Part shown: one piece after another, positions 1 to 17,441 of the stretch
Position numbering within the stretch: the stretch's first letter is position 1
How the letters are laid out: every line of letters begins with the position of its first letter
DNA from: Chloroflexota bacterium
GTDB lineage: Bacteria; Chloroflexota; Anaerolineae; Aggregatilineales; Ch27
Direction: 5' to 3'
DNA length: 64,000 nucleotides
Assembly (NCBI GenBank): GCA_019873685.1
Contig: JAIOAT010000008.1
Coordinates: forward strand, 1-64,000
Notes under the pieces: model-generated
Database searches by the model: none
Told to the model about the DNA's origin: nothing
Seen by the model: only the letters and a program-made list of their open reading frames with translations
Position numbers and translations under genes: made by a program

Positions 1-456
1 CATCCAGCGAAGCCTCGATTGTCGGCGCGGTCAGGTCAACGTCGATATCTTCAACCGTCACCGAAGCGCTGTTGCCCGCCACATCCTCAATCGTCTTGCT
101 GACCGACTGATTCTCCCCTTCGCCCAGGGTCACCGCGGCAGGACACTCGACCACACCGGACAGGTTGTCGCCACAGGTGAAGCTCACCTCCACTTCGCTG
201 ACATACCAGCCGTTGTTGCCTGCTGTACCATCCAGCGAAGCCTCGATTGTCGGCGCGGTCAGGTCAACGTCGATATCTTCAACCGTCACCGAAGCGCTGT
301 TGCCCGCCACATCCTCAATCGTCTTGCTGACCGACTGATTCTCCCCTTCGCCCAGGGTCACCGCGGCAGGGCACTCGACCACACCGGACAGGTTGTCGCC
401 ACAGGTGAAGCTCACCTCCACTTCGCTGACATACCAGCCGTTGTTGCCTGCTGTAC
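1..456 (-). repeat. Two near-identical 228-bp tandem copies of one Ig-like module
   Basis: Bases 1-228 and 229-456 align with a single difference that I can find (A at 143, G at 371). It is synonymous, TGT versus TGC for Cys. Each copy encodes exactly 76 residues, so copy number can change without breaking the frame. The next module (457 onward) has clearly diverged. The array may continue beyond the left edge. Confidence 0.9.
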
Positions 457-2296
457 CATCCAGCGAAGCGATGATCGTCGGTGCGGTCTTGTCGATCTTG
501 ATGCCGCTCACCGAGGCTGAAGCGCTGTTGCCTGCCTTGTCATATGTTGTGCCGGATGCACTGAGATTATTCCCCTCGATTGCGCCCAGTGTGATATCAG
601 CAGGGCAGGAGGCAGTGCCAGACAAGGCATCACTGCACGTGAAGTGAATGGTGACGTTCGTGTTGTACCAGCCGTTGCTGTTGGGGGATGTGGTCGGTGC
701 AGCGCTGATCGTCGGCGCGGTCTTGTCGATGTTGATGCCGGAGACAGTCTCCGAGGCGCTGTTGCCTGCCTTGTCATAGATTGTACGTGCTACAAATTGA
801 TCTGCCCCTTCGCTACTTAGTACTTCGTCGAGGCCACAATCTACCACGCCTGACAAATTATCATTGCACTCGAACGACACCGTCACATCCGAGTTGTTCC
901 AGCCGTAGCTATTTGCAACTGGCAAACGCGACCCGCTGATCGTCGGCGCGGTCTTATCGATGTTGATGTTGGAGACGGTCGCTGAGGCGCTGTTACCGGC
1001 GTTGTCAACGGCTGTTCCAGTGACAAACTGCCCTGCACCTTCGCCGGTGAGTGTTGTACCTCCCGTGCAGGAAGCCACGCCTGACGTCCCATCATTGCAC
1101 GTGAAGGAGACCGTCACATCCGAGTTGTTCCAGCCGTAGGCGTTTGCACCCGGCGAACGCGACCCGCTGATTGTCGGCGCGGTTGCATCGCGCTTGATCG
1201 TGACCGACTGCGAGCTTGTCCCGCCGGCGCTGGTCGCGGTGCAGGTCAGGGTGGTGCCAGTTGTGTCGGCACTGATGGTTGTTGACTCGCAGCCGGAAGC
1301 AGTTACGGGCGAAATGTCAGTGTACGACCAGCTTACAGCCACATCACTCGTATACCAGCCATTGTTGCCGAGCGTGCCATTGACAGTGGGAGTGATCACT
1401 GGCGCAGTCTTGTCGATGTTGATGTTGGACACGGTCGCTGAGGCGCTGTTGCCCGCGTTGTCAACTGCCGTGCCCGTTGCAGACTGCCCCGCGCCTTCGC
1501 TACTCAGGGTCACATTCGGGCCACAGGAGGCAACGCCTGACAGGTTGTCCGCACACGTAAAGGACACGGTCACGTCGGTGTTGTTCCAGCCGCCAACAGG
1601 CGCAGGCGCTGCTACCCCGCTGATTGTCGGCGGGGTCGCATCGCGCTTGATCGTGACCGACTGCGAGCTTGTCCCGCCGGCGCTGGTCGCAGTGCAGGTC
1701 AGGGTGGTGCCGGTTGTGTCGGTGGTGATGGTCGTTGAGCCGCAGCCGGAGGTAGAGGTAATTGGCGACTCGTTATCGACAACAGTCCAGCTCACGGTCA
1801 CATCGCTCGTATACCAGCCGTTATTGCCGAGGGTGCCGCTGATGCTGGGCGTGATCACGGGCGGGGTGGAGTCGGGTGGGGCGAGGACGTGCAGGGTGAA
1901 CTTAGCGGGGTTAGTATTGTAGGTGCCAGTACCACTGTCACTCACTGAGACAGTAATCTCAAAGTTGCCTGTAACAGTGGATGTAAACACAGTTGGCACA
2001 TACACACCGCACGCCGTAAAAGTGAGGGGATTTGGATTGGCCGTAACCCCTTGAGGAACGTTGATTGTGACTGTGGCCGGGGAGCCGTCACTTGCATTGC
2101 AGCCGGTTTGCCCGTCGCCGCTGTTCGCGGTGATTCTGTAATTCACAGTTGTTGAGCCGCCGAGTATGAAGGTGTCGTTGCCACCAACTACAACATCGTT
2201 TTGGACGTTGTCCGCCAGTACGACATAGGCCGAGAACAACAGAAGAGCTGCAATCACCAATGTCCAAAATCGATTGAACCGCTGCCTTTGCTTCAT
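1..2296 (-). CDS. Secreted multi-domain Ig-like repeat protein, partial (C-terminus beyond left edge)
   Basis: The frame is open from ATG at 2296 to the left edge without a stop, about 765 codons. GGAGG lies 7 bases before the ATG. The N-terminus is basic, then hydrophobic, with a likely signal cleavage after VLA near residue 28. After about 130 residues of beta-rich sequence come at least eight modules of about 75 residues, each ending in a version of IDKTAPTIS. Two types are seen: type B (GWYTSDVTVSW, ending TIKRDATPPTIS) and type A (GWNNSDVTVSFTC, then AGNSASATVSNINIDKTAP, with a Cys pair that could form a disulfide). The order from the N-terminus is B-A-B-A-A-A-A-A. Such arrays are typical of exported surface or adhesive proteins; the ligand is unknown. 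The last two modules in view are almost identical. Confidence 0.85.
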   Translation of the reverse strand, partial: MKQRQRFNRFWTLVIAALLLFSAYVVLADNVQNDVVVGGNDTFILGGSTTVNYRITANSGDGQTGCNASDGSPATVTINVPQGVTANPNPLTFTACGVYVPTVFTSTVTGNFEITVSVSDSGTGTYNTNPAKFTLHVLAPPDSTPPVITPSISGTLGNNGWYTSDVTVSWTVVDNESPITSTSGCGSTTITTDTTGTTLTCTATSAGGTSSQSVTIKRDATPPTISGVAAPAPVGGWNNTDVTVSFTCADNLSGVASCGPNVTLSSEGAGQSATGTAVDNAGNSASATVSNINIDKTAPVITPTVNGTLGNNGWYTSDVAVSWSYTDISPVTASGCESTTISADTTGTTLTCTATSAGGTSSQSVTIKRDATAPTISGSRSPGANAYGWNNSDVTVSFTCNDGTSGVASCTGGTTLTGEGAGQFVTGTAVDNAGNSASATVSNINIDKTAPTISGSRLPVANSYGWNNSDVTVSFECNDNLSGVVDCGLDEVLSSEGADQFVARTIYDKAGNSASETVSGINIDKTAPTISAAPTTSPNSNGWYNTNVTIHFTCSDALSGTASCPADITLGAIEGNNLSASGTTYDKAGNSASASVSGIKIDKTAPTIIASLDGTAGNNGWYVSEVEVSFTCGDNLSGVVECPAAVTLGEGENQSVSKTIEDVAGNSASVTVEDIDVDLTAPTIEASLDGTAGNNGWYVSEVEVSFTCGDNLSGVVECPAAVTLGEGENQSVSKTIEDVAGNSASVTVEDIDVDLTAPTIEASLD
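1185..1690 (-). repeat. Repeated type-B module segments, 453-bp period
   Basis: A 53-base block at 1185-1237 recurs identically at 1638-1690. It encodes the end of each type-B module (SAGGTSSQSVTIKRDA). The 453-bp offset equals 151 codons, so a B+A module pair was duplicated as a unit in this gene. Confidence 0.8.
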
Positions 2297-2409
2297 GATA
2301 GGTCCTCCGTATGAGCCATGAAAAGTCAACAGATAATGTGGCAAAGATAAAGTACAACACGGCAGTCGCAAAGCCGGTGTTCAAATAACACCGCCGGGTC
2401 GCAGGAATC

Positions 2410-2440
2410 GCGCCCGCAGTCGCAATCCGACTGCGGGCGC
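2410..2440 (-). terminator. 13-bp perfect hairpin between two leftward genes
   Basis: The arms 2410-2422 and 2428-2440 are perfectly complementary with a 5-base loop. It lies 60-90 bases downstream of the response regulator stop and upstream of the Ig-repeat gene. No T-run follows on the minus strand, so termination is inferred from stem strength and position. Confidence 0.6.
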
Positions 2441-2499
2441 CACCGTATGGATAGAAATCGGTTTGAGCGCTGTTGGAATTGCGCGGGGCGGGCCGGGCG

Positions 2500-3198
2500 C
2501 TAGGGGTAGAAGGTGTAGCCCTCGCCCGCCACAGCCACGATGTGCCGGGGCTGGGCCGGGTTCGGCTCGATCTTGCGGCGCAGGCGGTACACCACGTTCT
2601 TCACCAGCGTGCTATCCGCCCCGCCCATATAGCCCCATACCCGGTCGATGATCATGCTGGTTGGCAGCACCTGCCCGGCGTGGGCCACCAGCAGGTGCAG
2701 TAATCGCAGTTCCAGGTTGGTCAGCCTGACCGTTGTCCCGTTCGGCGTCACCAGCTGGCGCTGGCGGGTATCCAGCCGCAGCGGGCCGATCTGCAGCGGA
2801 TCCAGCGCCTCCGCCGGAGCCTGCCACGAACGTGCCACCCACACCCGCACCTTGGCCAGGAACAGGCGCGGGTCCAGCGGCTTGCCGACGCACTCACTGG
2901 CCCCGGCCTGGTAGGCTTCCAGCGCGTGCGCCTCGCTGTAGTCGCTCAGGAGCAGCAGGATGGGCGCGGCGGCGACCGTGCGCAGCGCGCGCACGATCTC
3001 GATCCCGCCCTGGTACGGCCCGCACACGTCCACGATGATCATCTCGCTGGCCTGCCCGCCCCACCAGTCCAGCGCTTCCTGTGCGGAATGGAGAAGGGTG
3101 GTCTCGTAATCCTTCGCCTGCAGGAGATGCGTCCACAGGTGCCCGCTTTCGGGGTCATCAGCGATAAAGAGGATGCGTACTTTGAGGACCTCGTTCAT
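2500..3198 (-). CDS. OmpR/PhoB-type response regulator
   Basis: This 232-residue protein has a receiver domain and a winged-helix DNA-binding domain. Visible receiver residues are the acidic pair D14-D15, phospho-acceptor D57 (MIIVD), S85 and K106 (VGKP). The C-terminal domain carries NLELRLLHLLVAHAGQV and the recognition-helix region NVVYRLRRKIEP, ending in the usual GEGYTF. The frame is open for 89 codons further upstream, but the receiver begins directly after ATG 3198, and the extension is unlike any family member. No sensor kinase is adjacent, so it is an orphan regulator here. Its target is unknown; the leftward Ig-repeat gene lies downstream behind a hairpin. Bases 3199-3448 hold nothing I recognise. 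Confidence 0.85.
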   Translation of the reverse strand: MNEVLKVRILFIADDPESGHLWTHLLQAKDYETTLLHSAQEALDWWGGQASEMIIVDVCGPYQGGIEIVRALRTVAAAPILLLLSDYSEAHALEAYQAGASECVGKPLDPRLFLAKVRVWVARSWQAPAEALDPLQIGPLRLDTRQRQLVTPNGTTVRLTNLELRLLHLLVAHAGQVLPTSMIIDRVWGYMGGADSTLVKNVVYRLRRKIEPNPAQPRHIVAVAGEGYTFYP

Positions 3199-3448
3199 GG
3201 GTGCCTGCCCGGTACTTAGCACTACCGTTAAATAATACGTAGTCTCCAAGGCAGAATCCGGTCCTTCCTCTGATTTCATTATGGTCTGGTAGCGCGTACC
3301 ATGCAATCCACCGGGCCTAAATTTCTCATAAAAAATGTCAGGATGCGCCGGGCTGCGCGGTGCTGCCGCCCGCGATTTGGGCTGCTGCAGGCGGCGGGTT
3401 ACAATCGCCGGGCAAAGGTACGGCAGCGGAGCACTCAGGAGCGCGGCG

Positions 3449-3823
3449 GTGGAACGGACTTTCACGGTGATAGCGGCGGTTCTGGGCGGGCTGGCGGTGG
3501 CGCTGGGCGCCTTCGGATCGCACGGGCTGGCGGCGCACTTCGCCGCTCACCCCGATCTGCAGGGGCCGTATGAGACGGCCAACCGCTACCACATGGCGCA
3601 TGCGCTGGCGCTGCTGGCCGTGGCCTGGGCGGCCACGCGCTGGAACAGCCCGCTGTTGCCCTGGGCGGGGTGGCTGTTTGTGGCCGGGGTGATTCTGTTC
3701 TCCGGCAGCCTGTACGCCCTCAGCCTGACCGGGCTGCGCTGGCTGGGCGCGGTGGCGCCGCTAGGTGGGGCGGCGTTCGTGGCCGGCTGGGCGCTACTGG
3801 CGCTGGCCGCCTGGCGGGGGTAA
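3449..3823 (+). CDS. DUF423 family small membrane protein
   Basis: This 124-residue protein has four hydrophobic segments and the family signature GAFGSHGL near the N-terminus, followed by YETANRYHMAHALALL. I chose GTG 3449 because AGGAG lies about 8 bases upstream and the protein then has the normal DUF423 length. The open frame starting at 3335 adds 38 residues of improbable sequence. DUF423 proteins (such as YgdD) sit in the inner membrane; their biochemical role is not established. The gene stands alone, divergent from the regulator on its left. Confidence 0.8.
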   Translation: MERTFTVIAAVLGGLAVALGAFGSHGLAAHFAAHPDLQGPYETANRYHMAHALALLAVAWAATRWNSPLLPWAGWLFVAGVILFSGSLYALSLTGLRWLGAVAPLGGAAFVAGWALLALAAWRG

Positions 3824-3943
3824 AGAACATTTCACATGTAATCCTCTATCGTGGCCTTGCTGATAATCCCAACGGAATTCGGCATACGTTCATGTGAATA
3901 CCACGGAATAGGCGAACATTAGTTTCGCCTGCTGGCCCGAGTC

Positions 3944-3952
3944 TGGTATAAT
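3944..3952 (+). promoter_or_regulatory. Extended -10 promoter of the restriction-modification pair
   Basis: TGGTATAAT at 3944-3952 is a perfect extended -10 element (TGn-TATAAT) 32 bases before the methyltransferase ATG. No good -35 box is seen, as is usual for extended -10 promoters. Confidence 0.55.
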
Positions 3953-3983
3953 TCCGGCTGAATACACTGAGAAAAGCTGAAAT

Positions 3984-5399
3984 ATGCCGAAAGAAATGCA
4001 AAGCAAAGTAGCAATAACTTTGGGGCTAGAGTATCGTGAGATGCTAATCAACCTGTTGAAAAGCGACCTGGATTTCCACGATCAGGTCAGTAATTATGCA
4101 TCACATAACTTTCATGCTTTTCCTGCCAAATTCCCTCCTCAGTTACCTCGAAAGTTCATTGAAGGACTTACAAAGCCTGGCGATGTTGTTCTTGATCCAA
4201 TGATGGGGTCAGGAACAACAGTGGTTGAAGCCCTGTTGGCTGGGCGAGAGTCGATCGGCTTTGATATTGATCCTTTAGCTGTCCGTCTTTCCAAAGTAAA
4301 GACAACATGGTTAGAAATTGAACGAATCAAGGAGATCGGTCAGCGAATTGTTCGCCAAGCGTCGTTGACCCTGAATGATCCAGAAATGCTTTTGGACAAA
4401 TTAGCCACGCGATTTGATGCCAAAACAAGAGAGTTTGTTGACTATTGGTTTGCGCCTGCCACCCAACTTGAACTTATTGCTTTGGTGATTCAGATAGAGA
4501 AATTAGCTGAGCCTGAACTTAGAGATTTCTTCTCAATAGTTCTTTCAAGCATCATCATAACGAAATCGGGAGGTGTGTCTCTAGCATTTGACCTGGCACA
4601 CACTCGTCCCCACAGAGCAAAGGTAGTTTTGTCCAAGGCTGGAGAGGTCATTGTGGGAGACGCTTGTAGCAGCAATTCACGACGCGTTAGGCTGCTGACT
4701 AAGACGTTGCGTTCACCTATAGAGGAGTTCGAGAAGCGGTTACAGCGTAATTTGTCGGGATTCATTCAATATACACCGAGTACAATTCCTCCAAGAATAC
4801 AGTATGCCGATGCACAGCAGTTGCCGCTCGACGATAAGACAGTGGATTTGATTGTGACCTCACCACCTTATATATCAAATGCTATAGACTATATGCGTGC
4901 CCACAAGTTCTCGTTGGTTTGGCTGGGCTACTCAATTCAGGAGCTTGGAGACAAACGTAGAGCGTACATTGGCGGGGAAGCCGTCTCTGGTGCAAGGCTT
5001 CTTGATTTGCCTGATGCTGCCCGCCAAGTGGTGCGTAGCATCAGCCAACTTGACATAAAAAAAGCACAAGCTGTTCATCGGTACTATTCGGAAATGACCC
5101 TTGTATTGAAAGAGATGTTCCGTGTTCTACGCCCTGGAAAAGCAGCAATAGTGGTCGTAGGTACTTCTGTAATTAGAGAAATTGACACACAAATTGATCT
5201 CTGTCTAGCAGAGATTGGCAAGCATATTGGATTTGAAGTTCCTGCCATTGGCGTAAGGAATCTGGATCGCAATCGCCGCATGTTACCGGCAAGCGCGATT
5301 ATAGACAGCAATTCTCAGATTCAACAGAGAATGCATGAGGAATTTGTCATTGGTTTTTATAAGCCGATGGTAAGACGGAATAGCAATGATTATAAATGA
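3984..5399 (+). CDS. Site-specific DNA methyltransferase (SPPY class, probably N4-cytosine)
   Basis: This 471-residue protein carries the SAM-binding motif DPMMGSGTT at residues 71-79, followed by GFDIDPLA. The catalytic motif TSPPY is at 292-296. An N-terminal HNFHAFPAKFPPQL segment is typical of these amino-methyltransferases. SPPY usually marks N4-cytosine enzymes, though N6-adenine activity cannot be excluded. Motif I precedes motif IV with about 215 residues between them, room for target recognition (alpha-like order). The gene overlaps the next one by 14 bases, so translation is coupled. It should protect host sites from the neighbouring nuclease. Base composition is clearly richer in A and T than the flanks, which suggests horizontal acquisition. 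Confidence 0.85.
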   Translation: MPKEMQSKVAITLGLEYREMLINLLKSDLDFHDQVSNYASHNFHAFPAKFPPQLPRKFIEGLTKPGDVVLDPMMGSGTTVVEALLAGRESIGFDIDPLAVRLSKVKTTWLEIERIKEIGQRIVRQASLTLNDPEMLLDKLATRFDAKTREFVDYWFAPATQLELIALVIQIEKLAEPELRDFFSIVLSSIIITKSGGVSLAFDLAHTRPHRAKVVLSKAGEVIVGDACSSNSRRVRLLTKTLRSPIEEFEKRLQRNLSGFIQYTPSTIPPRIQYADAQQLPLDDKTVDLIVTSPPYISNAIDYMRAHKFSLVWLGYSIQELGDKRRAYIGGEAVSGARLLDLPDAARQVVRSISQLDIKKAQAVHRYYSEMTLVLKEMFRVLRPGKAAIVVVGTSVIREIDTQIDLCLAEIGKHIGFEVPAIGVRNLDRNRRMLPASAIIDSNSQIQQRMHEEFVIGFYKPMVRRNSNDYK

Positions 5400-6246
5400 T
5401 CTGCGCCAAAGGTATCACCAGCAAATTGGTAACGAGATTATCCGAATCAGAGTCAGTAAGAAGAGGGGTAAATATCCCAATTTCGCCGATGGAGATAATG
5501 CTAACAGCATCAGAATCGCTTGGAACATTATCGAGCAATTGAATCTCAAATCGAATGAGACAGAATTATCTGAACAAGGGGTAGGAAAGCTTTTTGAGAA
5601 AGCGACTTGCCTCTTCCTTGAACAAGTCTTTCAGTGTCTTTCTCATTTACGGCCGGGGCGTTGGCTGTACAAAACCGATACTGAGATTTCTAGCTTTGAA
5701 CAGTATGAACATCTAGCTAATGTCGCGTCCATTCTGAAGAAAAACAAGGAATTGGCCTCAGTTCTAGGAAGTGACTATATTGTTACCCCAGACATTGTTG
5801 TTGCTAGGTATCCTGTTTCAGATGAGGAAATCAATGCCAGACAAGCACTTGTAGACAATTCAGTAAGCATTGTTAGACTGACTCCGCTTCGAGAAGGCAA
5901 CCGACAGCAACCTTTTCCTATTCTGCATGCCAGTATCTCGTGCAAATGGACAATACGCAGTGATCGGTCACAAAACACACGCACGGAAGCTCTCAACCTG
6001 ATTCGTAATCGCAAGGGCCATCTGCCCCATGTTGTTGCTGTAACGGCTGAACCGCTTCCAACGCGAATTGCTACTCTTGCGCTTGGCACAGGTGACTTGG
6101 ACTGCGTATATCATTTTGCGCTTCCAGAACTAAGCCAGGCAGTAAGGGAGGCCCATACTGAAGATCAATGGGATATGCTTTGTACCATGATTGAGGGAAA
6201 GCGGCTAAGAGACATCAGTGATCTGCCGTTTGACTTGGCTGTCTAG
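5386..6246 (+). CDS. NgoMIV-family type II restriction endonuclease, predicted GCCGGC
   Basis: The protein is 286 residues long, the length I recall for R.NgoMIV. Active-site residues of the NgoMIV/Cfr10I fold are visible: E71, D136 (TPD), S185-C186-K187 and E201. The last four fall at exactly the NgoMIV numbers. The DNA-contact motif R191-S-D193-R194, which in NgoMIV reads the CCGG core, is also present. From this I infer cleavage at GCCGGC by a Mg-dependent tetramer. The ATG lies inside the methyltransferase end (ATGATTATAAATGA), so the nuclease is made after the methylase. The gene shares its AT-rich composition and converges with the ABC gene only 11 bases away. Confidence 0.88.
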   Translation: MIINDLRQRYHQQIGNEIIRIRVSKKRGKYPNFADGDNANSIRIAWNIIEQLNLKSNETELSEQGVGKLFEKATCLFLEQVFQCLSHLRPGRWLYKTDTEISSFEQYEHLANVASILKKNKELASVLGSDYIVTPDIVVARYPVSDEEINARQALVDNSVSIVRLTPLREGNRQQPFPILHASISCKWTIRSDRSQNTRTEALNLIRNRKGHLPHVVAVTAEPLPTRIATLALGTGDLDCVYHFALPELSQAVREAHTEDQWDMLCTMIEGKRLRDISDLPFDLAV

Positions 6247-6257
6247 CTAGATCGACG

Positions 6258-7838
6258 CTAGATATCCCCCCACGCCCCGGCGTGCGCCCGCGCCTGCTCC
6301 AGCGTGGAGCCAGCCATCATCAGCCCCAGCGTCTCCACGTCGGCTTCCTCGCGGGCCAGCTCGCCCATGATCTGCCCTTCGTAGAGCACCACAATCCGGT
6401 CGGAGAGGGCCATGATCTCGTCCAGGTCTTCCGAGATCAGCAGGATGGCCACGCCGGCGCTGCGCTGCTCCATCAGCACCTGGCGGATGTATTCCGTGGC
6501 GCTGATGTCCACGCCGCGCGTCGGCTGGGAGGCGATCAGGACGACCGGCTGGCGGGAAAGCTCGCGGGCCAGGATCAGCTTCTGCACGTTGCCGCCGGAG
6601 AGATTCTTGACCGGCGTTTCCGCTGAAGGCGTCTTGATGTTGAAGCGGTTGATCAGCCCGCGCGTGTGGGCGGCGATCGCGCCGAAATCGAGGAAGATGC
6701 CGCGCGCGAACGGCTCGCTGGCGTGGGTTTGCAGGATCAGGTTTTCCGCCACCGTGAAGACGCTGATCGTGCCGTGCCGGTTGCGCTCCTCCGGGATGAA
6801 CGAAAGCCCGGCGGCCAGCCGTTCGCTGACCGGAGCGTGGCTGATCTCGCGTCCGGCCAGGCGAATCGCCCCGCCGCTGACCGGCCGCAGCCCGGCGATC
6901 GATTCCGCCAGCTCGCGCTGCCCGTTGCCAGAAACGCCAGCGATGCCGACGATCTCCCCGGCGCGGACGTTCAGGGAAACACCTTGCAGAGCGGGCAGGC
7001 CCTGGTCGCTGAGCACGGTCAGATTCTCCAGCGCCAGGCGCACCTCACCCGGCTGGACTTCCGGTCGGTCGGGCTGGAGCTTGACATCGCGCCCGACCAT
7101 CATCCGCGCCAGGGTGCGCTGCTCGATCCCGTTGTTGGGCACGGTATCCACCACCCGTCCGTCGCGCATGACCGTGATCCGGTCGCATAGCGCCTGCACC
7201 TCATACAGCTTGTGGGAGATGAAGATCAGGGCGTGGCCCTGGTCGCGCATCTGGCGCAGCGTACTGAATAGCTCGTCAACCTCCTGCGGGGTCAGCACGG
7301 CGGTCGGCTCATCGAGGATGATCAGCGCCCCGCCTCGGTAGAGCGCCTTGATGATCTCCACCCGCTGCTGCTCCCCTACGGAAAGCTGCCAGATGTAGGC
7401 ATCCGGGTTAACCTTCAGCCCGTAGATCGCGGAAAGCTCCAGCAGGCGCTCCCGCACCTCCGCCAGGTTGAGCACTGTCCCCGCCGGCTGCATCCCCAGA
7501 GCTACATTCTCGGCGACGGTCAGCGTCTGGACGAGCATGAAGTGCTGGTGGATCATGCCGATGCCCTGCGCCAGCGCATCCGAAGGCGATTCCAGCCGCA
7601 CGGGCCGGCCGTTGATCAGAATCTCGCCCTCGTCCGGGTGGTAGAGACCGTAGAGGATTTTCATCAGCGTGCTTTTGCCCGCGCCGTTTTCGCCCAGCAG
7701 GGCGTGAATCTCGCCCGCCTTGACATCGAAGTTGACATGGTCGTTAGCCAGGACGCCGGGGAAACGCTTGACGATATTGCGCATCTCCGCGCTATCGATG
7801 CGGGTGTGGCCGGAGGGAAGGGTTACGCCTGAGGACAT
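6258..7838 (-). CDS. Sugar/nucleoside ABC transporter, duplicated ATP-binding protein
   Basis: Two ABC modules are fused in one chain of about 526 residues, as in RbsA/XylG/YufO-type importers. The first has an intact Walker A (GENGAGKST), a variant signature LSVGEQQR and Walker B LIILDEPTAV. The second has the degenerate P-loop GVSGNGQRE usual in this family, signature LSGGNVQK, and PTRGVDI. The protein energises import of nucleosides or simple sugars from the cytoplasmic face. AGGGGG precedes two consecutive ATGs (7841 and 7838); the second has better spacing. No permease or binding-protein gene is adjacent: the restriction-modification pair abuts its 3' end and a lipoprotein gene lies upstream. 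Confidence 0.88.
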   Translation of the reverse strand: MSSGVTLPSGHTRIDSAEMRNIVKRFPGVLANDHVNFDVKAGEIHALLGENGAGKSTLMKILYGLYHPDEGEILINGRPVRLESPSDALAQGIGMIHQHFMLVQTLTVAENVALGMQPAGTVLNLAEVRERLLELSAIYGLKVNPDAYIWQLSVGEQQRVEIIKALYRGGALIILDEPTAVLTPQEVDELFSTLRQMRDQGHALIFISHKLYEVQALCDRITVMRDGRVVDTVPNNGIEQRTLARMMVGRDVKLQPDRPEVQPGEVRLALENLTVLSDQGLPALQGVSLNVRAGEIVGIAGVSGNGQRELAESIAGLRPVSGGAIRLAGREISHAPVSERLAAGLSFIPEERNRHGTISVFTVAENLILQTHASEPFARGIFLDFGAIAAHTRGLINRFNIKTPSAETPVKNLSGGNVQKLILARELSRQPVVLIASQPTRGVDISATEYIRQVLMEQRSAGVAILLISEDLDEIMALSDRIVVLYEGQIMGELAREEADVETLGLMMAGSTLEQARAHAGAWGDI

Positions 7839-8016
7839 CATCGGACCCCCTTGCGGCTGGCCGCCGGGAAGCGGCGGGCGCTGAACGATCGGCTGGCCCC
7901 GGCAGGGCCGCCATGCCCCCAATGTATACCATCAGAAGGCGGGTAGCTACAAGCGATAGTGTGGCAAACGAAAACAGGCCGGGCAGGAAGGCGTGCCCGG
8001 CCTGCCGGAATGCGGG

Positions 8017-10110
8017 TTAGCGCTGGCGGAGCGTGGCGCCGATGCGCGTCAACGAGAGCACACGGCCATCCGGCAGCGTCAGCACGACCTCGGAAGCGTA
8101 GTAGGAACCGCGCTGGCCTGGCCGGGCGAAGTCGTTGGTCTCCTGCACCTGGATGGTATAGCCCTGCTCCGGGGCGGTGGCCCAGCCCAGTGCATTCCGC
8201 ACGCCGGGATCGCCGACCCACAGCGTGCCAAAGCCCCGGATCGGCTGGAACAACCCCTGCGGCGGCGTCTCGCTGTAGACGACATCGCCGCCTGCCCAGC
8301 GGTCCGGATCGATGCGGCCATTGCCGCTGGCGTCCAGCCACCAGATCCGCCCCTCGAACCAGATCATCAGGCCGCGCTCAAACGGCTGGTAAGCGGCCTG
8401 GGCAAGGCGGGCTGGCGCGTTGGGGCAAAAAGTCTGCCGTTCCCCTGCGGCAAACCAGGGGTAGGTGCAGGTGATCGTCACCGGGATGCCCTCCTGGCCG
8501 GTCCCATCCTGCCCGAAGATCGTGAAACGGGCGGAAGTGACTTCCGTCGGGGCGCTGATTGTCAGCGAGCCGGAGAGCGGCAGCAGGGCGCCCGTTCCGC
8601 TCAGGGAGACGCGACGGGCGGGCAGCGCCTCATGCCACATCCACAGGCTGACGCCGTTGACGCCGCTGACATCCCAGGTGAGCGTCAGCGGCCCGCCCGC
8701 GGCCACTGTGCGCGGCTGCACATCAAAGGCGTGGATCACCAGGCCGCTCGGCGCTTCGCCCACCGGGACGATGTATGACAGGCGCTCGTCGGAATACTCG
8801 TAAACCCAGCCGGTAACGCCGCTGACCTCAGAGCGCACCTTCCACTGGCGGTGGCCGAGCGTCTCCTGGGTGGCCGGTTCGATGCGCAGGCAGTAAGGCC
8901 CTTCGATCACGGTGAAGGTTTCGCCCGCCTGCAGACTGCCGGTAGTCTGGCTGCCGCCAGGCTTATCCGCTGTATCGCCCATCAGGCTCAGGCCGTACTG
9001 CATCGTGTCGGAAAGCCGTGCGCCGAAGCCCACGCGGATGCCGCGATCGGGCAGGAACGGTGCGCTGTAGCACTGCGCCGGGTCGTAGATGCGGTAGCCG
9101 CGGAACACGCCGAAGTACAGGCGGTAATCGGTGAACGTCCCGCTGTATTCGTGAATCCAGCCCTCCAGCCCGGAGCGCTCTACGCGTACGCGCCACTGGC
9201 GGTGGCTTTCGCTGCTGCCCGGCGCGCGGTAACAGAACGGCCCTTCCAGTACGACGAACGTCTCCCCGCGCGGCAGGTAGCCTACCACACGTCCGCCCAC
9301 GCCGCTGATGGCGGTCATGGGCAGGCCGGCCGGTAGCTGCTGGCTGACGATGCCGCGCGCCCCGACCTGGACGCCGGTGCTGGGGATATAGGGCGGCTGG
9401 TAACAGGCATCGCCGCTGGCTGTGGCAAAGCCGCCCAGCGGCAGCGGATTCACCGGCACGCGCAGCTCCGCGCGGGCCAGCGTCGCGCCGGTGCTCATAG
9501 CGATCACGCGCAACTGGAGGCGAATCTCGGTCGCGTCGCCGCCGGGCAGGATCGGGATCACGCTCCCGCTGCCTTCAGAGGGCACTTCCACAAAGTGGCG
9601 GGGCCGCTCAACATTGAACGTCCGACCGTCCGGGAAAACTTGCTCAAAAACCAGGTTAGTGCCCGGCGCACGGTTGTCTACCCGCCAGTTCAGCGTTACT
9701 TCCTCCCGCCCCAGGGCCAGGTCCAGAGCGTCCACGCCGATGGTGTCGGTGGCAAAGCGCGTGATCACCGGCGGCACCAGCGTACTGGTGGGCGAGGGCG
9801 TGAAGGTGGCTGATGGGATGGGCGTAGCGATGATGCCCAGGTCCACCACCGTTGGGACCAGGGTGTATAGCACAGGCGTGAGCGTTGGCGGCGGGGTAGC
9901 GGTAGGCAGGGCGGTATGGGTGGCCGTCGGACTGGCGCGCAAAGCAGCCAGGCTCAGGGGGGTGTTGGTCGGCCCCGGGGCGGTCACCGGCGTTTCCGTC
10001 GCCGGTATCGTGCCGGTCGGCATCGGCGGCGTACCACCTCCAGTGCAGCCCGCCAGCGCCAGCACGCCGGCCAGCAGGACGGCGACGCGCTTCGTCCAGT
10101 GACACATCAT
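8017..10110 (-). CDS. Large lipoprotein with two SH3b-like modules
   Basis: This 697-residue exported protein has a lipobox LALAGC at residues about 18-23. A Thr/Pro-rich linker (many TPT/PTAT steps) follows and probably spans the cell wall. An Ig-like beta domain comes next, then two related modules each starting with a Cys-containing CYxxP(Y/F)-P segment and ending GWIHEYS or GWVYEYS, which resemble bacterial SH3 domains. A second Ig-like stretch and a C-terminal domain with GWATAPEQGY complete it. ATG 10110 is preceded by GGAGG with 8 bases of spacing; the 92-codon upstream extension is rejected. The protein should be anchored outside the membrane. Its partner is unknown. Confidence 0.75.
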   Translation of the reverse strand: MMCHWTKRVAVLLAGVLALAGCTGGGTPPMPTGTIPATETPVTAPGPTNTPLSLAALRASPTATHTALPTATPPPTLTPVLYTLVPTVVDLGIIATPIPSATFTPSPTSTLVPPVITRFATDTIGVDALDLALGREEVTLNWRVDNRAPGTNLVFEQVFPDGRTFNVERPRHFVEVPSEGSGSVIPILPGGDATEIRLQLRVIAMSTGATLARAELRVPVNPLPLGGFATASGDACYQPPYIPSTGVQVGARGIVSQQLPAGLPMTAISGVGGRVVGYLPRGETFVVLEGPFCYRAPGSSESHRQWRVRVERSGLEGWIHEYSGTFTDYRLYFGVFRGYRIYDPAQCYSAPFLPDRGIRVGFGARLSDTMQYGLSLMGDTADKPGGSQTTGSLQAGETFTVIEGPYCLRIEPATQETLGHRQWKVRSEVSGVTGWVYEYSDERLSYIVPVGEAPSGLVIHAFDVQPRTVAAGGPLTLTWDVSGVNGVSLWMWHEALPARRVSLSGTGALLPLSGSLTISAPTEVTSARFTIFGQDGTGQEGIPVTITCTYPWFAAGERQTFCPNAPARLAQAAYQPFERGLMIWFEGRIWWLDASGNGRIDPDRWAGGDVVYSETPPQGLFQPIRGFGTLWVGDPGVRNALGWATAPEQGYTIQVQETNDFARPGQRGSYYASEVVLTLPDGRVLSLTRIGATLRQR

Positions 10111-10235
10111 CTCCTGCTCCTCCTCAAAAAGATTACTTTCACTTACAGGGTACAGGAAAAAACAGGCCGCCGGAACTGGCGCGGCGGCGGTACGTTGGGC
10201 AAGCGTGGGGATAGCGGTGGGTAAGGCGCGGGACG

Positions 10236-10826
10236 CTAGCCGGCGTCGCCCTCGCTGACGCCGGTCGGCGATCGCCCGGCAGCCGCCTTGAGCCGCCGGA
10301 GCGCCCGATGGTGAGGCTTCAGCCAGCTTTCCCCCAGGGCGCGGTCGAGCAGGTCGGGCCGGCAGCGGATCGCTTCCAGCAGCCATTGGTGGGCGGTATC
10401 GCGCTGGCCAAGCTGCGTGTAGCAGACGGCCATGCGGTAGCAGATGATGCCGTGGCGGCTGGGATCAATCGTATCCAGCACGCGGTCAACCGTCAGGGCT
10501 TCTTCCCATTCCTGGCGGATCAGGTGCAGCGAGGCCAGGTTGTTCCAGGCCTGGCTCAGTTCGAGGATGGCGATCTCGCTGGCCCGCTGGACGGCGGCCA
10601 GCGCCTCGTCATGATCGCCCTGCTCCTCCAGCGCCCCGCCCAGCAGCAGCCAGGCGTCAAAGTAGGTCGGCCAGATGGCAATCGCCCGCCGGCAATGCCT
10701 GATGGCGTTGTCCCACTCGCCGCGATCCATATGCTCCAGGGCGTAGGCCCACTGCTCCGAGGGGTTTTCCTCCCAGGGGATGTGACGGCGAACCTCGAGG
10801 ATACTGCGATCATCATCGGGGGGCAT
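10236..10826 (-). CDS. Tetratricopeptide repeat protein
   Basis: This 196-residue protein contains about three to four TPR units, seen in WAYALEHMDRGEWDNAIRHC, AWLLLGGALEEQGDHDEAL, AWNNLASLHLIRQEWEEAL and YRMAVCYTQLGQRDTAHQ. It has no signal peptide or membrane segment, so it is probably a cytoplasmic protein-interaction scaffold. AGGAG lies 8 bases before the ATG. It is 76 bases downstream of the hybrid kinase in the same direction and is probably co-transcribed with it, so it may assist that signalling protein. This link is inference. Confidence 0.8.
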   Translation of the reverse strand: MPPDDDRSILEVRRHIPWEENPSEQWAYALEHMDRGEWDNAIRHCRRAIAIWPTYFDAWLLLGGALEEQGDHDEALAAVQRASEIAILELSQAWNNLASLHLIRQEWEEALTVDRVLDTIDPSRHGIICYRMAVCYTQLGQRDTAHQWLLEAIRCRPDLLDRALGESWLKPHHRALRRLKAAAGRSPTGVSEGDAG

Positions 10827-10902
10827 GGGACGCGCTCCTGGTTCACACCGGGCGAGTTGCCCCTCATTCTAGTATGGCCGCTCATGGCGGGCAACCGGGG
10901 GA

Positions 10903-12522
10903 TCAGGCCAGCGGCAGCGTGAACCCGAATGTGCTGCCCTGGCCGTAGACGCTGTTGAACACCATTTCCCCGTTGTGGCGGGTGATGATGTTGCGCACCA
11001 GGTGCAACCCCAGCCCCGTGCCTTCCACCGCGGAAACCTCGCTGCTCTTGGCCCGGAAGAACGGCTGGAACAACCGCTTTTGTTGATCTTCGGGGATGCC
11101 GTAACCGGTATCGACGACCTCAAAGCGGGCTTTGTCGCCATTGAGCTGCACCTGTAACTGTATGGCCCCACCCGCCGGGGTGTATTTGATGGCATTACCG
11201 ACCAGGTTCGAGATGGCCTCATACAGCAGTGATGGCTCCCCCTGCACCATCACCGGCCCCGGGGCCAGCGCCAGCTCGAAGCGTTGCTCCTTGCGGCGGG
11301 CCTGTTCATGGTAGTCGCGGTAGGCCTGCTCAACCAGCGCCTGCAGATCCAGTAGTTCGGTCCGCAGGGCGCCCGATTCGTCCAGCCGCTCCAGGGAGAG
11401 GATATCGGTCGTGATCTTCTGCATCCGTTCGGCGGAGCGCTCAATGAAGTCGAGGTATTCCAGCGCCTGCGGCTGGGTAACCGGGTCCAGTTCGCGGCGT
11501 AGCAGGTAGGCAAAGCCAATGATGTTGTTGAGCGGGGCGCGCAGGTCGTGCGTGGCGATGCGGATCATGTCCGTCTTCATCTGCTCCAGGTTGCGCACCT
11601 GGTTGTACAGCTCCTGGAGCTTGGCCAGCTGGCTGCGGGACTTCTCATACAGCCGGGCGTTATCGACCGCCGTAGCGATCCGGGCGGCCAGCAGCTTGAG
11701 GAAATCAAAGGTTTCCTCGGTGAAGCGGTTGGGATCGGTGGTTTCCAGGTTCAAGAAGCCCACCAGACGATCCTGGGACAGCAACGGGATGGCGATCTGG
11801 GCGCGGGTCTGGGGCAGCAGCGGCAGGTAATCCGGGTCGGTGCTGACATCCAGCACACGCTGGGGCTTGCGCTCCCGCAGGGCGCGGCCCACCACGCCGC
11901 GCGTGAGAATCGTCTCATCCTTCAGGTCGGGGACATTGTAGTTGATATCCCTGACCAGCCGCAGGTGTTCATCCTGCAGCAGGCCGATCAGGCCAGCGCT
12001 GGCCACGCTCAGGCGCACGGCGGTATCCAGGGCCATGGTCAGGACGTAATCGAGGTCCAGGTGGCGGGTTAGTTCCTCGTCAATATCGCGTAGGATGGCC
12101 AGACGCATATTCTGGCGGTTGCGATCGGCCTGGACACGCTGGCGCTCGATGGCATAGGCGATCGATTGGGCCAGGGCGCGCATATCGGTGTGGCCCTTGA
12201 CCAGGTAATCCTGCGCTCCATTCTGCACGGCGCTGAGCGCGATCTGCTCGTCATCCAGCCCGCTGAGCACCACAATCGGCAATTCCGGGTCAGCCTTGTG
12301 CAGGCGGGCGAAAGTCTCCAGCCCCCGTGCGTCGGGCAGGGTCAGGTCCAGCAGCACCGCGTCAAACGTGCGCTGTTTGATCTCCACCAGGGCGTCGCTG
12401 AGGTAGTCGACATGCACCAGCTCGTACTGCCGCCCGCGGGAGCGCCGCAGCGCCGTCGCGATCAGGCGGGCATAGCCGGGATCATCTTCCACCAGCAGGA
12501 CGGCGGTGCTTTCACTGCTCAT
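10903..12522 (-). CDS. Hybrid sensor: receiver-GAF-histidine kinase
   Basis: This 539-residue soluble protein begins with a receiver domain (D13-D14, phospho-acceptor D59 in LLDLTLPD, K109). A GAF domain of about 150 residues follows, then a coiled-coil linker. A HisKA dimerisation domain has the phosphorylated H325 in THDLRAPLNN, and an HATPase domain shows the N box NLVGNAIKY, G1 box DTGYGIP and GTGLGLHL. It lacks membrane segments, so it senses an internal ligand through GAF or takes input through its receiver. ATG 12522 has GGAG 9 bases upstream; a GTG five codons earlier is the alternative. A receiver at the N-terminus suggests a place within a multi-step relay. Confidence 0.87.
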   Translation of the reverse strand: MSSESTAVLLVEDDPGYARLIATALRRSRGRQYELVHVDYLSDALVEIKQRTFDAVLLDLTLPDARGLETFARLHKADPELPIVVLSGLDDEQIALSAVQNGAQDYLVKGHTDMRALAQSIAYAIERQRVQADRNRQNMRLAILRDIDEELTRHLDLDYVLTMALDTAVRLSVASAGLIGLLQDEHLRLVRDINYNVPDLKDETILTRGVVGRALRERKPQRVLDVSTDPDYLPLLPQTRAQIAIPLLSQDRLVGFLNLETTDPNRFTEETFDFLKLLAARIATAVDNARLYEKSRSQLAKLQELYNQVRNLEQMKTDMIRIATHDLRAPLNNIIGFAYLLRRELDPVTQPQALEYLDFIERSAERMQKITTDILSLERLDESGALRTELLDLQALVEQAYRDYHEQARRKEQRFELALAPGPVMVQGEPSLLYEAISNLVGNAIKYTPAGGAIQLQVQLNGDKARFEVVDTGYGIPEDQQKRLFQPFFRAKSSEVSAVEGTGLGLHLVRNIITRHNGEMVFNSVYGQGSTFGFTLPLA

Positions 12523-12865
12523 GCTTTCGTACTCCACTCTGCCCGTAAGCTATTTCGCAACCATCATATGACGGGCATGGCCGGTCAGGCAATCGATCAT
12601 GCCTATGGCAACCTACTTCATTGTAGCACGCAAACGCTTATACTGGCCTGACGGCGTCGCCAGTGGTGGGCCGGGAGGCAGGGGACGAGCGGCAAACAGG
12701 CGGCACGGCCTGAATCCGGGCGGCAGGCAGATCGCTGGCAGGCGGGTACCTGTGCCTGTTTGACCCCATCGCGCTCCCCCAGAATGACACTCACGCCGCT
12801 TCCAGCGCGGAGGCGGCGTGAGTGTCCCGGCCAGTTACCGGGAGAGCTTCAGCCAGGCGCGGTGC
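12523..12865. other. Intergenic region with a nuoN 3' hairpin
   Basis: This 343-base gap separates nuoN from the hybrid kinase, both leftward. It contains the hairpin listed at 12786-12826 and GC-rich sequence without a supported ORF. No clear promoter was found, although the kinase must start somewhere here. Confidence 0.5.
12786..12826 (-). terminator. 14-bp perfect hairpin after nuoN
   Basis: The arms 12786-12799 and 12813-12826 are perfectly complementary with a 13-base loop. The element lies 40-80 bases past the nuoN stop. No strong T-run follows. Confidence 0.65.
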
Positions 12866-14374
12866 TCAGCCGCCCAGCGCCAGGGTCACCCCGCTGGATA
12901 CCCCGGCCAGCAGGTCGGGGAAGACGCCCAGGATCAGCGTTCCCAGCATGGCAATGACCAGGGCGACAGTCAACGAGCGCGGCAGCCGCGGCGTGGCTAT
13001 CGTGGCCGGCCCTTCCTGCAGGAACATGGCTACCACCACCCGCAGGTAGTAGTACGCCCCGAACACGCTGGTCACCACGCCGAGCACTGCCAGCCAGACT
13101 AGCCCGGCGTCCACCGCGCTCAGGAAAACGTACCACTTCCCGACAAACCCCGCCGTCAGCGGGATGCCGGTCAGGCTGAGCAAGAAGAGGGTCATCAACA
13201 GGGCCAGCAGGGGATGTTGCCGCCCCAGACCGGTGAAGTTTTCCAGCTCAACGCCGCTGCCATCGTTGCGCTCCACGGCAATCACGACGGCGAAAGCGCC
13301 CAGGTTGGTGAAAGTGTAGGCCAGCAGGTACAGCAGTGCCGCCTGCACGCCGCGATCGGCCACCCCGGGATGCCCTGCCGCCGCCACCGCTACCAGCACA
13401 TAGCCCGCATGGGCGATGGAGGAATAGGCCAGCAGACGCTTGAGGTTGGTCTGCCAGATCGCGGCCAGGTTACCCAGGATCATCGTCAGCGCCGCCATGA
13501 CCGCCAGCGCGTCCACCCAGGCCGCCCGTGTACCTTGTGCTATGACCAGCGTGGGCAGCCCCACCAGCAGGACGCGCAGCAGCGCCGCAAAGCTGGCCGT
13601 CTTGGTCCCCACGCTCATGAACGCGGTGACCGGTGTGGGCGCTCCTTCGTAGACATCCGGCGTCCACATGTGGAAGGGCACGGCGGCTACCTTGAAGCTC
13701 AGCGAGACGGCAACCAGCCCCACGCCCAGCAACAGCAGATACACTGTTGACGAGCCGCCCTCCACAATGGCGCTCACCGCCTGCCAGACAGCAGGCAGGC
13801 GGGTGGAGCCGGTCGCGCCGTAGATCAGGGCGATCCCGAAGACGATGAACCCGCTGGCAAACGCGCCCAACAGGAAGTACTTCAGCGCCGCTTCCTCGCT
13901 CAGCAGATCTGGCCGGCGGATGCCGCTCAACACATACAGGGGGATGCTCACCAGTTCCAGGGCAATGAAGATGATGATCAGGTCGTTGGCCGCGCCCATC
14001 AGCATCATCCCCCAAGTGGTGAACAACAGCAACAGGTAGTATTCCGTACGGTGTTCGATCTGGGCGCGCCTGAGATAATCATTCGCCAGCAGGATACTGA
14101 TCGCGGCGGCAGTCAGGACGGTCACATTGACCAGACTGGCGAAGGGATCGGCGCGGAGCATCCCGCCGAAGGCTTCCCCGCGTAAATCAAAATTGACCAG
14201 AGCGATCCCCAGGCTGATCAGCGTGATGAGCAGGGCCAGCCAGGCAATCCACCACTGGCGTCGCTGCGGCAAGAGCAGCTCGATCACCAGCAATACGATC
14301 GTGCCGATCACCAGCGCCAGCGCCGGGAGCGCCGCGCCCATATTGAGGCTTTCCAAGGTTGGCAGTTCGAACAT
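12866..14374 (-). CDS. nuoN: NADH-quinone oxidoreductase subunit N
   Basis: This 502-residue, highly hydrophobic protein shows the antiporter-like fold of complex I membrane subunits, with about 14 predicted helices. Recognisable conserved stretches are ALELVSIPLYVLSG, ALKYFLLGAFASGF, PFHMWTPDVYEGAPTPVTAF and LLAYSSIAHAGY. NuoN takes part in proton translocation by complex I. ATG 14374 has AGGGG 5 bases upstream; the 22-codon extension to 14440 is unlikely. No other nuo gene is in the window, so this copy is isolated. It could be a separated piece of a split nuo operon or an extra copy. Confidence 0.92.
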   Translation of the reverse strand: MFELPTLESLNMGAALPALALVIGTIVLLVIELLLPQRRQWWIAWLALLITLISLGIALVNFDLRGEAFGGMLRADPFASLVNVTVLTAAAISILLANDYLRRAQIEHRTEYYLLLLFTTWGMMLMGAANDLIIIFIALELVSIPLYVLSGIRRPDLLSEEAALKYFLLGAFASGFIVFGIALIYGATGSTRLPAVWQAVSAIVEGGSSTVYLLLLGVGLVAVSLSFKVAAVPFHMWTPDVYEGAPTPVTAFMSVGTKTASFAALLRVLLVGLPTLVIAQGTRAAWVDALAVMAALTMILGNLAAIWQTNLKRLLAYSSIAHAGYVLVAVAAAGHPGVADRGVQAALLYLLAYTFTNLGAFAVVIAVERNDGSGVELENFTGLGRQHPLLALLMTLFLLSLTGIPLTAGFVGKWYVFLSAVDAGLVWLAVLGVVTSVFGAYYYLRVVVAMFLQEGPATIATPRLPRSLTVALVIAMLGTLILGVFPDLLAGVSSGVTLALGG

Positions 14375-14660
14375 AATCGCCCCTGGTTGGTCAGGATCGC
14401 TAAGAACGCAGCGCAGCATGGCTCCCGGGAACGCAGGCATGACGCAATAGCCCAGGCGCCAGAAACTCTACCAAACCTGTCTATGACGGTCAGTATTGTA
14501 TCCCGTCGCTCCGCAATGCGCCAGAAGCCGGCCTCCCTGCGGCTTCATTGTCAGGCAGCGCGGAGTCGGGTAAACTCCGCGCCGGATCGATGGGGGGCGG
14601 GCGTCCGCACAGGCCCGCCCCTCCTGTCTGTAGCCGGACTGTACTGAGGACAGCGGACTG

Positions 14661-16307: not shown

Positions 16308-16373
16308 TGCAACCCTGGCCCCCGCCCTGCGTACAGAGGATCAGAGTCGCAGCGGGTGGAAAGGAGCCAGACC

Positions 16374-16754
16374 ATGCGCGGATTCATCCTGCGCCTGATC
16401 ATCAACGGGATTGCCATCGCGGTTGTCGCCGCGTTATTGCCGGGCATCACGGTGGCCAACAACGATCTCGGCACGCTGGCGGTGCTGGCGCTGATCATCG
16501 CCCTGGTCAACGCCCTGGTGAAGCCGGTGATTATGTTGCTCGGCTGCCCGTTCATCATCCTGTCGCTTGGCCTGCTCATCCCGATCATCAACGGCCTGCT
16601 GCTGATGCTGGCAGCCGCCCTGTCCGGCGGACGCCTGATCGTAGACGGCCTGGGCTGGGCCATCCTGGGCGGGCTGATCATGGGCGTTGTCAGCATGGTG
16701 CTGGAAGGCGCGCTGGGCGTGAAAGAAGAGGAGCGTCAGGAGCAGCGTCGCTAG
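16374..16754 (+). CDS. Phage holin superfamily IV-like small membrane protein
   Basis: This 126-residue protein has four hydrophobic helices with the usual pattern of the 'phage holin family 4, superfamily IV' group: FILRLIINGIAIAVVAALLPGI, ALVNALVKPVI and PIINGLLLMLAAAL. The C-terminus is charged (KEEERQEQRR). AAAGGAG precedes ATG 16374 by 7 bases. Chromosomal members are common and not tied to prophages; their function is unknown. No other phage gene is nearby. It lies 66 bases after the substrate-binding protein gene and may be co-transcribed with it. Confidence 0.8.
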   Translation: MRGFILRLIINGIAIAVVAALLPGITVANNDLGTLAVLALIIALVNALVKPVIMLLGCPFIILSLGLLIPIINGLLLMLAAALSGGRLIVDGLGWAILGGLIMGVVSMVLEGALGVKEEERQEQRR

Positions 16755-16809
16755 GCTGCTGCTGACTTCTGCGCCGGGTCAGTTGCCGGAGCGCAATAAC
16801 TGACTGCAA

Positions 16810-16842
16810 AACGCCGGAGGGAGCATCCTCCGGCGTTCTTTT
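16810..16842. terminator. Bidirectional terminator between convergent genes
   Basis: The perfect 11-bp arms 16810-16820 and 16827-16837 have a 6-base loop. They are followed on the plus strand by CTTTTACC and on the minus strand by TTGC. It separates the holin-like gene from the end of the arsenic operon. Confidence 0.85.
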
Positions 16843-16864
16843 ACCTGTGGTCAGCCAGCCGCGT

Positions 16865-17401
16865 TTACAGCATCGCCTGTAACGTAGCCCGACGATCCGC
16901 CAGGGCCTCGTCAGTGAGTAGCGGGGTGCATTCGTCCACTGTCCGCTGCCCCTGGATCAGCGCCACGGCGAAGGCCATGCAGGTCGGTTCCCCGCAGGCT
17001 TTACAGTTCGTCTGCGGCAGCAACGACCAGACATCCATCATGCGCGGGGCGCGGCGGGCCGCCCTGGCCGGGGCCAGCGCGGCGCGTTCCGCCCAGGTAG
17101 CATTGATGGCCTCCACCAGCGCCCCCAGCAGCGCCAGCCCTTCCTCGACATCCGCTACCTGGGTGAAGTACACCCGGTCAGGATACAGCGTCAGGAAGCC
17201 GCGCTGGCGGCGAAAGGTCAGCGCGCCCTGCTGCGGGTCGTAGGTGATCACATCCGGCAGCGTCGCCAGGTAAGGCAGCACATCATCCAGCGATCGGGAC
17301 GGTTGCCCGATCACGATGATCCGACCCGGTTCCGCCAGGCAGGGCAGCGTTCGGATCAGCGCGATCGATTCCAGGTACGGGCTGTCTTCCGGCGGCTGCA
17401 T
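16865..17401 (-). CDS. 4Fe-4S domain protein at the end of the arsenic operon
   Basis: This 178-residue protein has an N-terminal alpha/beta region of unknown fold and a C-terminal iron-sulfur motif, C133-x2-C136-x4-C141-x16-C158 (CKACGEPTCMAFA). That motif matches the FeS domain seen in CO-dehydrogenase-associated and electron-transfer proteins. An AAGGAG site lies 7 bases before the ATG. It is the last gene of the run arsR to acr3, 40 bases after acr3. I infer a redox or electron-delivery role linked to metalloid handling, but only position supports this. Confidence 0.75.
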   Translation of the reverse strand: MQPPEDSPYLESIALIRTLPCLAEPGRIIVIGQPSRSLDDVLPYLATLPDVITYDPQQGALTFRRQRGFLTLYPDRVYFTQVADVEEGLALLGALVEAINATWAERAALAPARAARRAPRMMDVWSLLPQTNCKACGEPTCMAFAVALIQGQRTVDECTPLLTDEALADRRATLQAML

Positions 17402-17441
17402 GGGCTATCTCCTTGCACAGAGCAGGCGCTCACACCCCCTG

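Follow-up and report, generated by a model that had tools for sequence, protein, structure and literature searches.

A predicted GCCGGC restriction-modification pair from Chloroflexota joins an NgoMIV-family nuclease to a probable N4-cytosine methyltransferase

Introduction

The restriction endonuclease NgoMIV (NgoAIV) of Neisseria gonorrhoeae recognizes GCCGGC, and its working residues are described in passages of two papers: E70, D140, K187 and E201 serve catalysis, R191, D193 and R194 read the CCGG core, and S192, Q63, D34 and R227 read the outer pair (PMC6344858, PMC4652773). In a table of PMC6789123 the mark of the gonococcal GCCGGC methyltransferase (MTase) is given as m5C; the same entry stands in a table of PMC12114051, whose other entries partly look wrong.

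The protection of one target by MTases of several classes has a precedent at GGCC, for which a passage of PMC3425538 names M.HaeIII (m5C), M.CbeI/DmtB (m4C, alpha class) and M.SuaI/M.PhoI (m4C, beta class). PMC5578853 lists CCWGG and GGNCC among the targets of alpha m4C enzymes and gives m5C as the predicted mark of a GCCGGC MTase. M.DraR1, an alpha-class MTase encoded on a small plasmid of Deinococcus radiodurans, methylates the second C of CCGCGG to m4C, as shown by SMRT sequencing, gene deletion and protection assays (PMC6712171). For three Chloroflexi drafts, the motifs given in the relevant passage of PMC6329791 are GANTC, TTAA and m4C at GCWGC, not GCCGGC. In an open-licence subset of the literature, we found no published pair of an NgoMIV-type nuclease with an m4C MTase.

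Here we describe such a predicted pair in a stretch of 64,000 nucleotides (hereafter the window) from a Chloroflexota bacterium, and we follow the MTase partners of its nuclease family across genomes, plasmids and viruses.

Results

Layout and composition of the gene pair

The pair lies on contig C8 of a draft genome of 4.12 Mb. The first gene (3984..5399, forward strand) encodes an amino-MTase of alpha order with 471 aa, a probable m4C modification enzyme, and the second (5386..6246, forward strand) encodes a Type II restriction endonuclease of the NgoMIV family with 286 aa, for which G/CCGGC is the predicted target. Both open reading frames are complete and stand where a preliminary description of this DNA had placed them. 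The 3' end of the MTase gene overlaps the start of the nuclease gene by 14 bp (5386..5399, forward strand), and the two genes are probably translationally coupled. The neighbouring genes, which code for a DUF423 protein (3335..3823, forward strand) and the ATPase of an ABC transporter (6258..7922, reverse strand), are outside the restriction-modification (R-M) system.

The pair had been called AT-rich, and this was borne out: when G+C was computed in 500-base windows over positions 1-14000, it was 42-48% within the pair and 55-70% in the windows clear of it. No flanking direct repeats of at least 14 nt were found in 3700-6500. Counts of promoter-like sites (6, shuffle mean 3.5) and of terminator-like sites (1, shuffle mean 2.4) gave no signal. 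Elsewhere in the window, the region 400-1870 is repeat-rich and shows several off-diagonal matches to a genome of the same genus.

The nuclease keeps the catalytic and target-reading residues of NgoMIV

The nuclease matched the whole Pfam profile NgoMIV_restric (PF09015, positions 1-275 of 275) with 375.9 bits, for a cut-off of 23.2, and an E-value of 1.3e-112. It also matched the NgoMIV protein of PDB entries 1fiu/4abt (E 8e-78), with 133 identities over 280 aligned residues, and the match at the family level is thus far beyond chance. The alignment confirmed what had been noticed beforehand, namely that S185, C186, K187, R191, D193, R194 and E201 occupy the same residue numbers in both proteins. 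In addition, E70, D140, D34, Q63 and R227 of NgoMIV are kept at positions 71, 136, 35, 64 and 227 of the window nuclease, and S192, a reader of the outer pair in NgoMIV, is likewise present. The preliminary description had regarded GCCGGC as a firm prediction; the reading residues are indeed intact, but "firm" is too strong a word, and GCCGGC is best called the target predicted from the family and the kept residues.

The methyltransferase is of alpha order and related to M.DraR1

In the window MTase the SAM motif DPMMGSGTT (residues 71-79) precedes TSPPY (residues 292-296), which is the alpha order. Its best PF01555 stretch (residues 38-103) corresponds to positions 154-219 of 221 of the profile, i.e. 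to the C-terminal end, which again implies the order SAM motif, long central part and TSPPY. The Pfam search listed no match to the C5-MTase family PF00145 at E-values up to 1. When 44 alpha partners of related nucleases were aligned, TSPPY was invariant, and all 44 matched PF01555.

The window MTase and M.DraR1 aligned by BLASTP with E 4e-24 and 23% identity, and the family profile found M.DraR1 with E 5.6e-27. Homologues of the window MTase were present in 68 plasmid records, among them pCP1 of Deinococcus radiodurans; from the species, the plasmid and the motif order, we take the homologue on pCP1 to be the gene of M.DraR1 (DR_C0020). By homology to M.DraR1, the window MTase is probably an m4C enzyme. 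The earlier view of the partner as an SPPY enzyme of m4C type, different in class from the gonococcal one, therefore stands in the form of an alpha PF01555 enzyme.

A predicted model of the MTase (pLDDT 86.6, pTM 0.88) gave only weak matches with Foldseek (best E 8e-6), and in a second structure search the best-ranked proteins were tRNA amino-MTases (Trm11/TrmN/Trm14), with Z of 15-18. We took this match as a sign of common fold and motif order, not of function. The top structural neighbour was archaeal Trm11, which was solved with Trm112, and a relative of the window MTase in Haloarcula virus HJTV-2 adjoins a gene of the Trm112 family; an activator resembling Trm112 may thus be used by some enzymes of the alpha m4C class.

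SPPY methyltransferases are common partners of NgoMIV-type nucleases

Using the class names alpha, beta and gamma for MTases, we labelled the partners of related nucleases with class profiles as alpha SPPY (label L, the window's type), beta SPPY (label S, about 300 aa) or C5 (label C). Pfam agreed with the label for the eight partners tested out of eight (L153, alpha; L017 and L103, beta; L003, L028, L030, L101 and L112, C5). Of the alpha partners, 82 were scored and 10 short ORFs were not; the SAM motif preceded SPPY in 80 of the 82. SPPY came first in 18 of 18 scored beta partners (1 unscored) and the C5 order was present in 68 of 73 partners labelled C.

Partners were counted by source as loci; some of these appear in more than one set, and some split genes count as two. 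The sample of the window's phylum (24 loci) contained 14 alpha, 5 beta and 4 C5 partners and 1 nuclease with none, and other phyla (22 loci) gave 11 alpha, 1 beta, 6 C5 and 4 with none. On viral contigs (59 loci) we counted 56 C5 and 2 alpha partners and 1 locus with none; the plasmid and phage set (7 loci, from 6 of 16 plasmid records found and the one phage record) held 6 C5 partners and 1 locus with none. The 80 loci on the genome contigs nearest to the window, which are the best 80 of at least 579 relatives and hence biased to the window's type, were accompanied by 65 alpha, 13 beta and 1 C5 partner, with 1 locus lacking any.

Within the window's phylum, 21 of 400 genomes contained PF09015. 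For four other phyla the counts were 4 of 398, 4 of 296, 6 of 294 and 6 of 82, each including one centre genome that had been chosen for carrying the gene; these four phyla were reached via relatives of the window and are not a random sample of bacteria. When the window genome and the four centres were left out, 36 genomes with the nuclease remained (18 alpha, 4 beta, 9 C5, 5 none), of which 20 belong to the window's phylum (11 alpha, 4 beta, 4 C5, 1 none) and 16 lie outside it (7 alpha, 5 C5, 4 none). The preliminary description implied that an NgoMIV-type nuclease with an m4C-type partner is unusual. This was not supported, since SPPY partners occur in 22 of the 36 other carriers across the five phylum samples: such pairs are common, not exceptional. 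In essence, this is the outcome that the preliminary description had named as speaking against it.

Three of the five partnerless genomes (G166, G1396 and G1456) have nuclease fragments only. Locus L188 (G1430:C67:141869-142696) is a nuclease of the alpha branch; the 9 kb around it contain none of the three MTase classes, and it carries the changes K187P, R191G, D193N, R194Q, E201D and R227K, which fits a decay of the nuclease after loss of the partner. At G663:C3 (L174/L193), a nuclease with all key residues has no recognised MTase in the 9 kb around it.

In 89 of 89 alpha loci with a gap of less than 300 bp, the MTase was upstream on the same strand, some of these loci occurring twice between sets. 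One cultured carrier of an alpha pair is Bellilinea caldifistulae (L100). The regularity of this arrangement bears on a reading in which the window MTase is m6A-specific, or is an orphan with another role, protection coming from elsewhere. It is true that PF01555 comprises both m6A and m4C enzymes and that SPPY is merely a statistical sign of m4C; moreover, M.CbeI makes m4C with DPPY, according to a passage of PMC3425538. However, GCCGGC contains no adenine, so that m4C is the only mark with which an amino-MTase could protect it, and both the arrangement of the loci and the homology to M.DraR1 speak for an m4C enzyme working with the nuclease. We consider the m6A or orphan reading extremely improbable and retain that of an m4C partner.

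At another locus (L102, 3606-7730), an NgoMIV-type nuclease has an alpha MTase upstream, and a PF01555 MTase with DPPY and a further ORF downstream; these are possibly two R-M systems back to back. No clear case of a swap intermediate with two MTases was seen among the loci, as the second MTase of L102 may belong to a second system.

The target-reading residues hardly change across partner classes

From 192 nuclease loci, 173 with a long enough ORF yielded 134 distinct nucleases, of which 70 have an alpha, 46 a C5 and 14 a beta partner, and 4 have none. D34, Q63, R191 and R194 are identical in all 130 partnered nucleases. D193 is kept in 69 of 70 alpha-, 46 of 46 C5- and 14 of 14 beta-partnered nucleases, the exception being D193G in L099; R227 in 70 of 70, 45 of 46 and 14 of 14, respectively; and S192 in 68 of 70, 45 of 46 and 14 of 14, with S192T/N in L058 and L094, and S192T together with R227I in L184. 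Since one of the two search patterns that delivered loci L032-L170 contained S192-D193-R194, the conservation of these three letters is partly imposed in those loci, but that of D34, Q63 and R227 is free of this bias. As to catalysis, 10 of the 130 have A, G or Q in place of E70, which the window nuclease keeps as its residue 71; the other catalytic positions are nearly fixed, with D140N in L182 as an exception. As judged from these alignments, the residues predicted to read the target hardly change across the three partner classes.

The nuclease family has changed its partner class

A tree was built from 107 nucleases. Of the 192 loci, 173 had a usable ORF, and near-copies among these had been dropped. 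Most C5-partnered nucleases fall on one side of a branch (support 98/99), and the alpha- and beta-partnered ones on the other. The beta-partnered nucleases form one clade (100/99) inside a set of 48 sequences that they share with alpha-partnered ones (100/98); the bootstrap of the tree is not fully settled, with a value of 100 for this mixed set. Three C5-partnered nucleases (L101, L184 and L112) lie on the alpha side, on long branches. On the best tree the fewest class changes amount to 4, for a mean of 36.2 after shuffling. An AU test did not reject a single clade of all C5-partnered nucleases (p 0.06), nor did it reject an alpha clade apart from beta and the main C5 group (p 0.19), so that only two class changes are certain; indeed, at least two are needed whatever the topology, because three classes sit on one tree.

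The nuclease family has thus changed its partner class, and the replacement is old and widespread. We think it moderately probable that the GCCGGC-reading surface of one nuclease lineage stayed the same while its protective enzyme was exchanged among three MTase classes of different motif order, namely C5 (gamma), alpha SPPY and beta SPPY, with at least two replacements and four on the best tree, where beta takes over from alpha and C5 re-enters the alpha branch. If this is true, the m4C and m5C marks are interchangeable antidotes for one nuclease.

Within the alpha loci, the identities between nucleases correlate with those between their MTases (r 0.61 for 57 non-redundant pairs, a value reached by 0 of 2000 permutations). 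This co-divergence fits a matched pair, though it does not fix the motif of the MTase, which might be broader than GCCGGC or different from it, containing or overlapping it (e.g. a subset of CCGG), in a pair that is functional and not one-to-one. Among the relatives found, M.DraR1 (23% identity) alone has been characterised by experiment, and its site, CCGCGG, is a different hexamer of G and C. The central specificity region of the window MTase is not readable from its sequence, and MTases may be less specific than their partner nucleases. Against these points stands the co-divergence, and we hold such a mismatch of motifs to be unlikely; methylation within the very site of the nuclease is the reading that we keep.

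The window locus is resident and under purifying selection

The same-genus genome G1474 has the pair at the same place, with a nuclease 79% and an MTase 81% identical to those of the window; a recent insertion at an empty site is therefore not supported. Between the two copies, dN/dS is 0.09 for the nuclease and 0.10 for the MTase, i.e. both genes are under strong purifying selection. The split or partial nuclease matches of several genomes (e.g. G361, G134, G101, G214 and G166), like the eroded locus L188 with its lost key residues and missing MTase, make one think of a decaying remnant in which one gene is inactive. In the window, however, both genes are complete, all catalytic residues are present and dN/dS is low, which makes a remnant highly unlikely and a working pair the preferred reading. 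The dS of the pair (1.23 for the nuclease, 1.03 for the MTase) exceeds that of six neighbouring genes (0.25-0.57); either the allele was replaced in place or the pair evolves under another substitution regime, and both would fit.

Besides the window genome, 4 of 60 close relatives carry the nuclease, and in all five genomes its partner is of alpha class. The pair is hence patchy but resident and not a fresh insertion. The partner swapping round a conserved nuclease that the preliminary description had proposed is thus upheld for the family, with its three classes and at least two changes; there is no sign of a swap at this locus, where all four other close carriers, the same-genus copy among them, have the same class.

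The same description had the pair inserted next to an ABC gene that lacks its permease. The ABC ATPase gene does adjoin the pair, and none of the 16 PF02653 permease matches of the source genome is on contig C8, but a link between the pair and the missing permease found no support. In five relatives of the same order, permease matches lie 5' of the orthologue of the ABC gene, while the R-M pair of the window lies 3' of the ABC gene; because these permeases sit on the other side of the ABC gene, the pair did not displace a permease. No permease match was found near the ABC gene in the same-genus copy (L208) or in a genome of the same family (L210), in a stretch of 15 kb each. On contig C6 (about 14298-18497), two PF02653 permeases adjoin an ORF whose start reads like a BMP-type binding protein; they may be the lost partners of the window ABC gene, for which no match was present in a stretch of 14 kb round them.

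Discussion

The sequences show how the genes are built and to what they are homologous, which residues are conserved and which classes of partner occur, and that the two genes co-diverge and are under purifying selection; the target, the methylated base and the translational coupling are inferred. Taken together, these findings make it very probable that this is a working Type II R-M pair, in which an NgoMIV-type G/CCGGC nuclease is accompanied by an alpha amino-MTase making m4C in the same site. By analogy with its family, the nuclease would cut G/CCGGC sites that carry no modification, probably acting as a tetramer that engages two of them, and the MTase would put m4C on one cytosine of GCCGGC. 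D193 belongs to an R-(D/E)R motif, and in the related PfoI the acid of this motif contacts the N4 groups of both core cytosines; an N4 methyl should then disturb the contact of D193 directly. With PvuII, m4C can protect with little clash, as stated in a passage of PMC4705667.

We also looked at GCCGGC itself, whose observed/expected ratio is 0.38 in 320 kb of the source genome; a same-order genome free of the nuclease gave 0.44 over 280 kb. As the latter is nearly as depleted, the depletion of GCCGGC does not discriminate between them and was not used as a sign of activity.

Because a cell dies when its nuclease and MTase do not match, the two genes of an R-M system are expected to be tied together. 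In this family the nuclease is constant and the antidote changes class, which provides a natural test of the way in which the protective member of a lethal pair is exchanged. The family also lets one ask whether m4C and m5C protect equally well. The view drawn from the gonococcal system, that an NgoMIV nuclease goes with a C5 MTase, has to be corrected: SPPY enzymes are the majority in the five samples combined, and outside the window's phylum they were found in 7 of 16 carriers, versus 5 of 16 for C5 enzymes.

Comparison with known systems

The window MTase has a homologue (profile E 3.5e-32) in the annotated N4-cytosine MTase of Haloarcula virus HJTV-2 (L252); however, the nuclease that neighbours this homologue is annotated as Eco29kI, not NgoMIV, and a gene of the Trm112 family lies between the two. 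The homology between M.DraR1 and the window MTase extends over most of the protein, and M.DraR1, as described in PMC6712171, has the SAM motif N-terminal, a central recognition region and SPPY C-terminal. It differs in its target, CCGCGG, and in its surroundings, as none of the five features in the 6 kb around it is a nuclease annotated as NgoMIV. The GGCC systems are a precedent for several MTase classes at a common target, whereas here the nucleases themselves are of one family.

The closest system is that of NgoMIV/NgoAIV. It shares with the window pair the target GCCGGC, as predicted here, the nuclease family, a length of 286 aa, all published catalytic and base-reading residues and the gene order, since in the gonococcal locus (L028), too, the nuclease gene directly follows that of the MTase. 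The gonococcal partner, as stated in the preliminary description, is a C5 MTase: it matches PF00145 with E 3.8e-81, in agreement with the m5C entries of the two published tables. Here, the partner is an SPPY enzyme of alpha order (PF01555), and the window pair belongs to a branch of the NgoMIV family, already established, where the place of the gonococcal C5 enzyme is taken by an SPPY enzyme.
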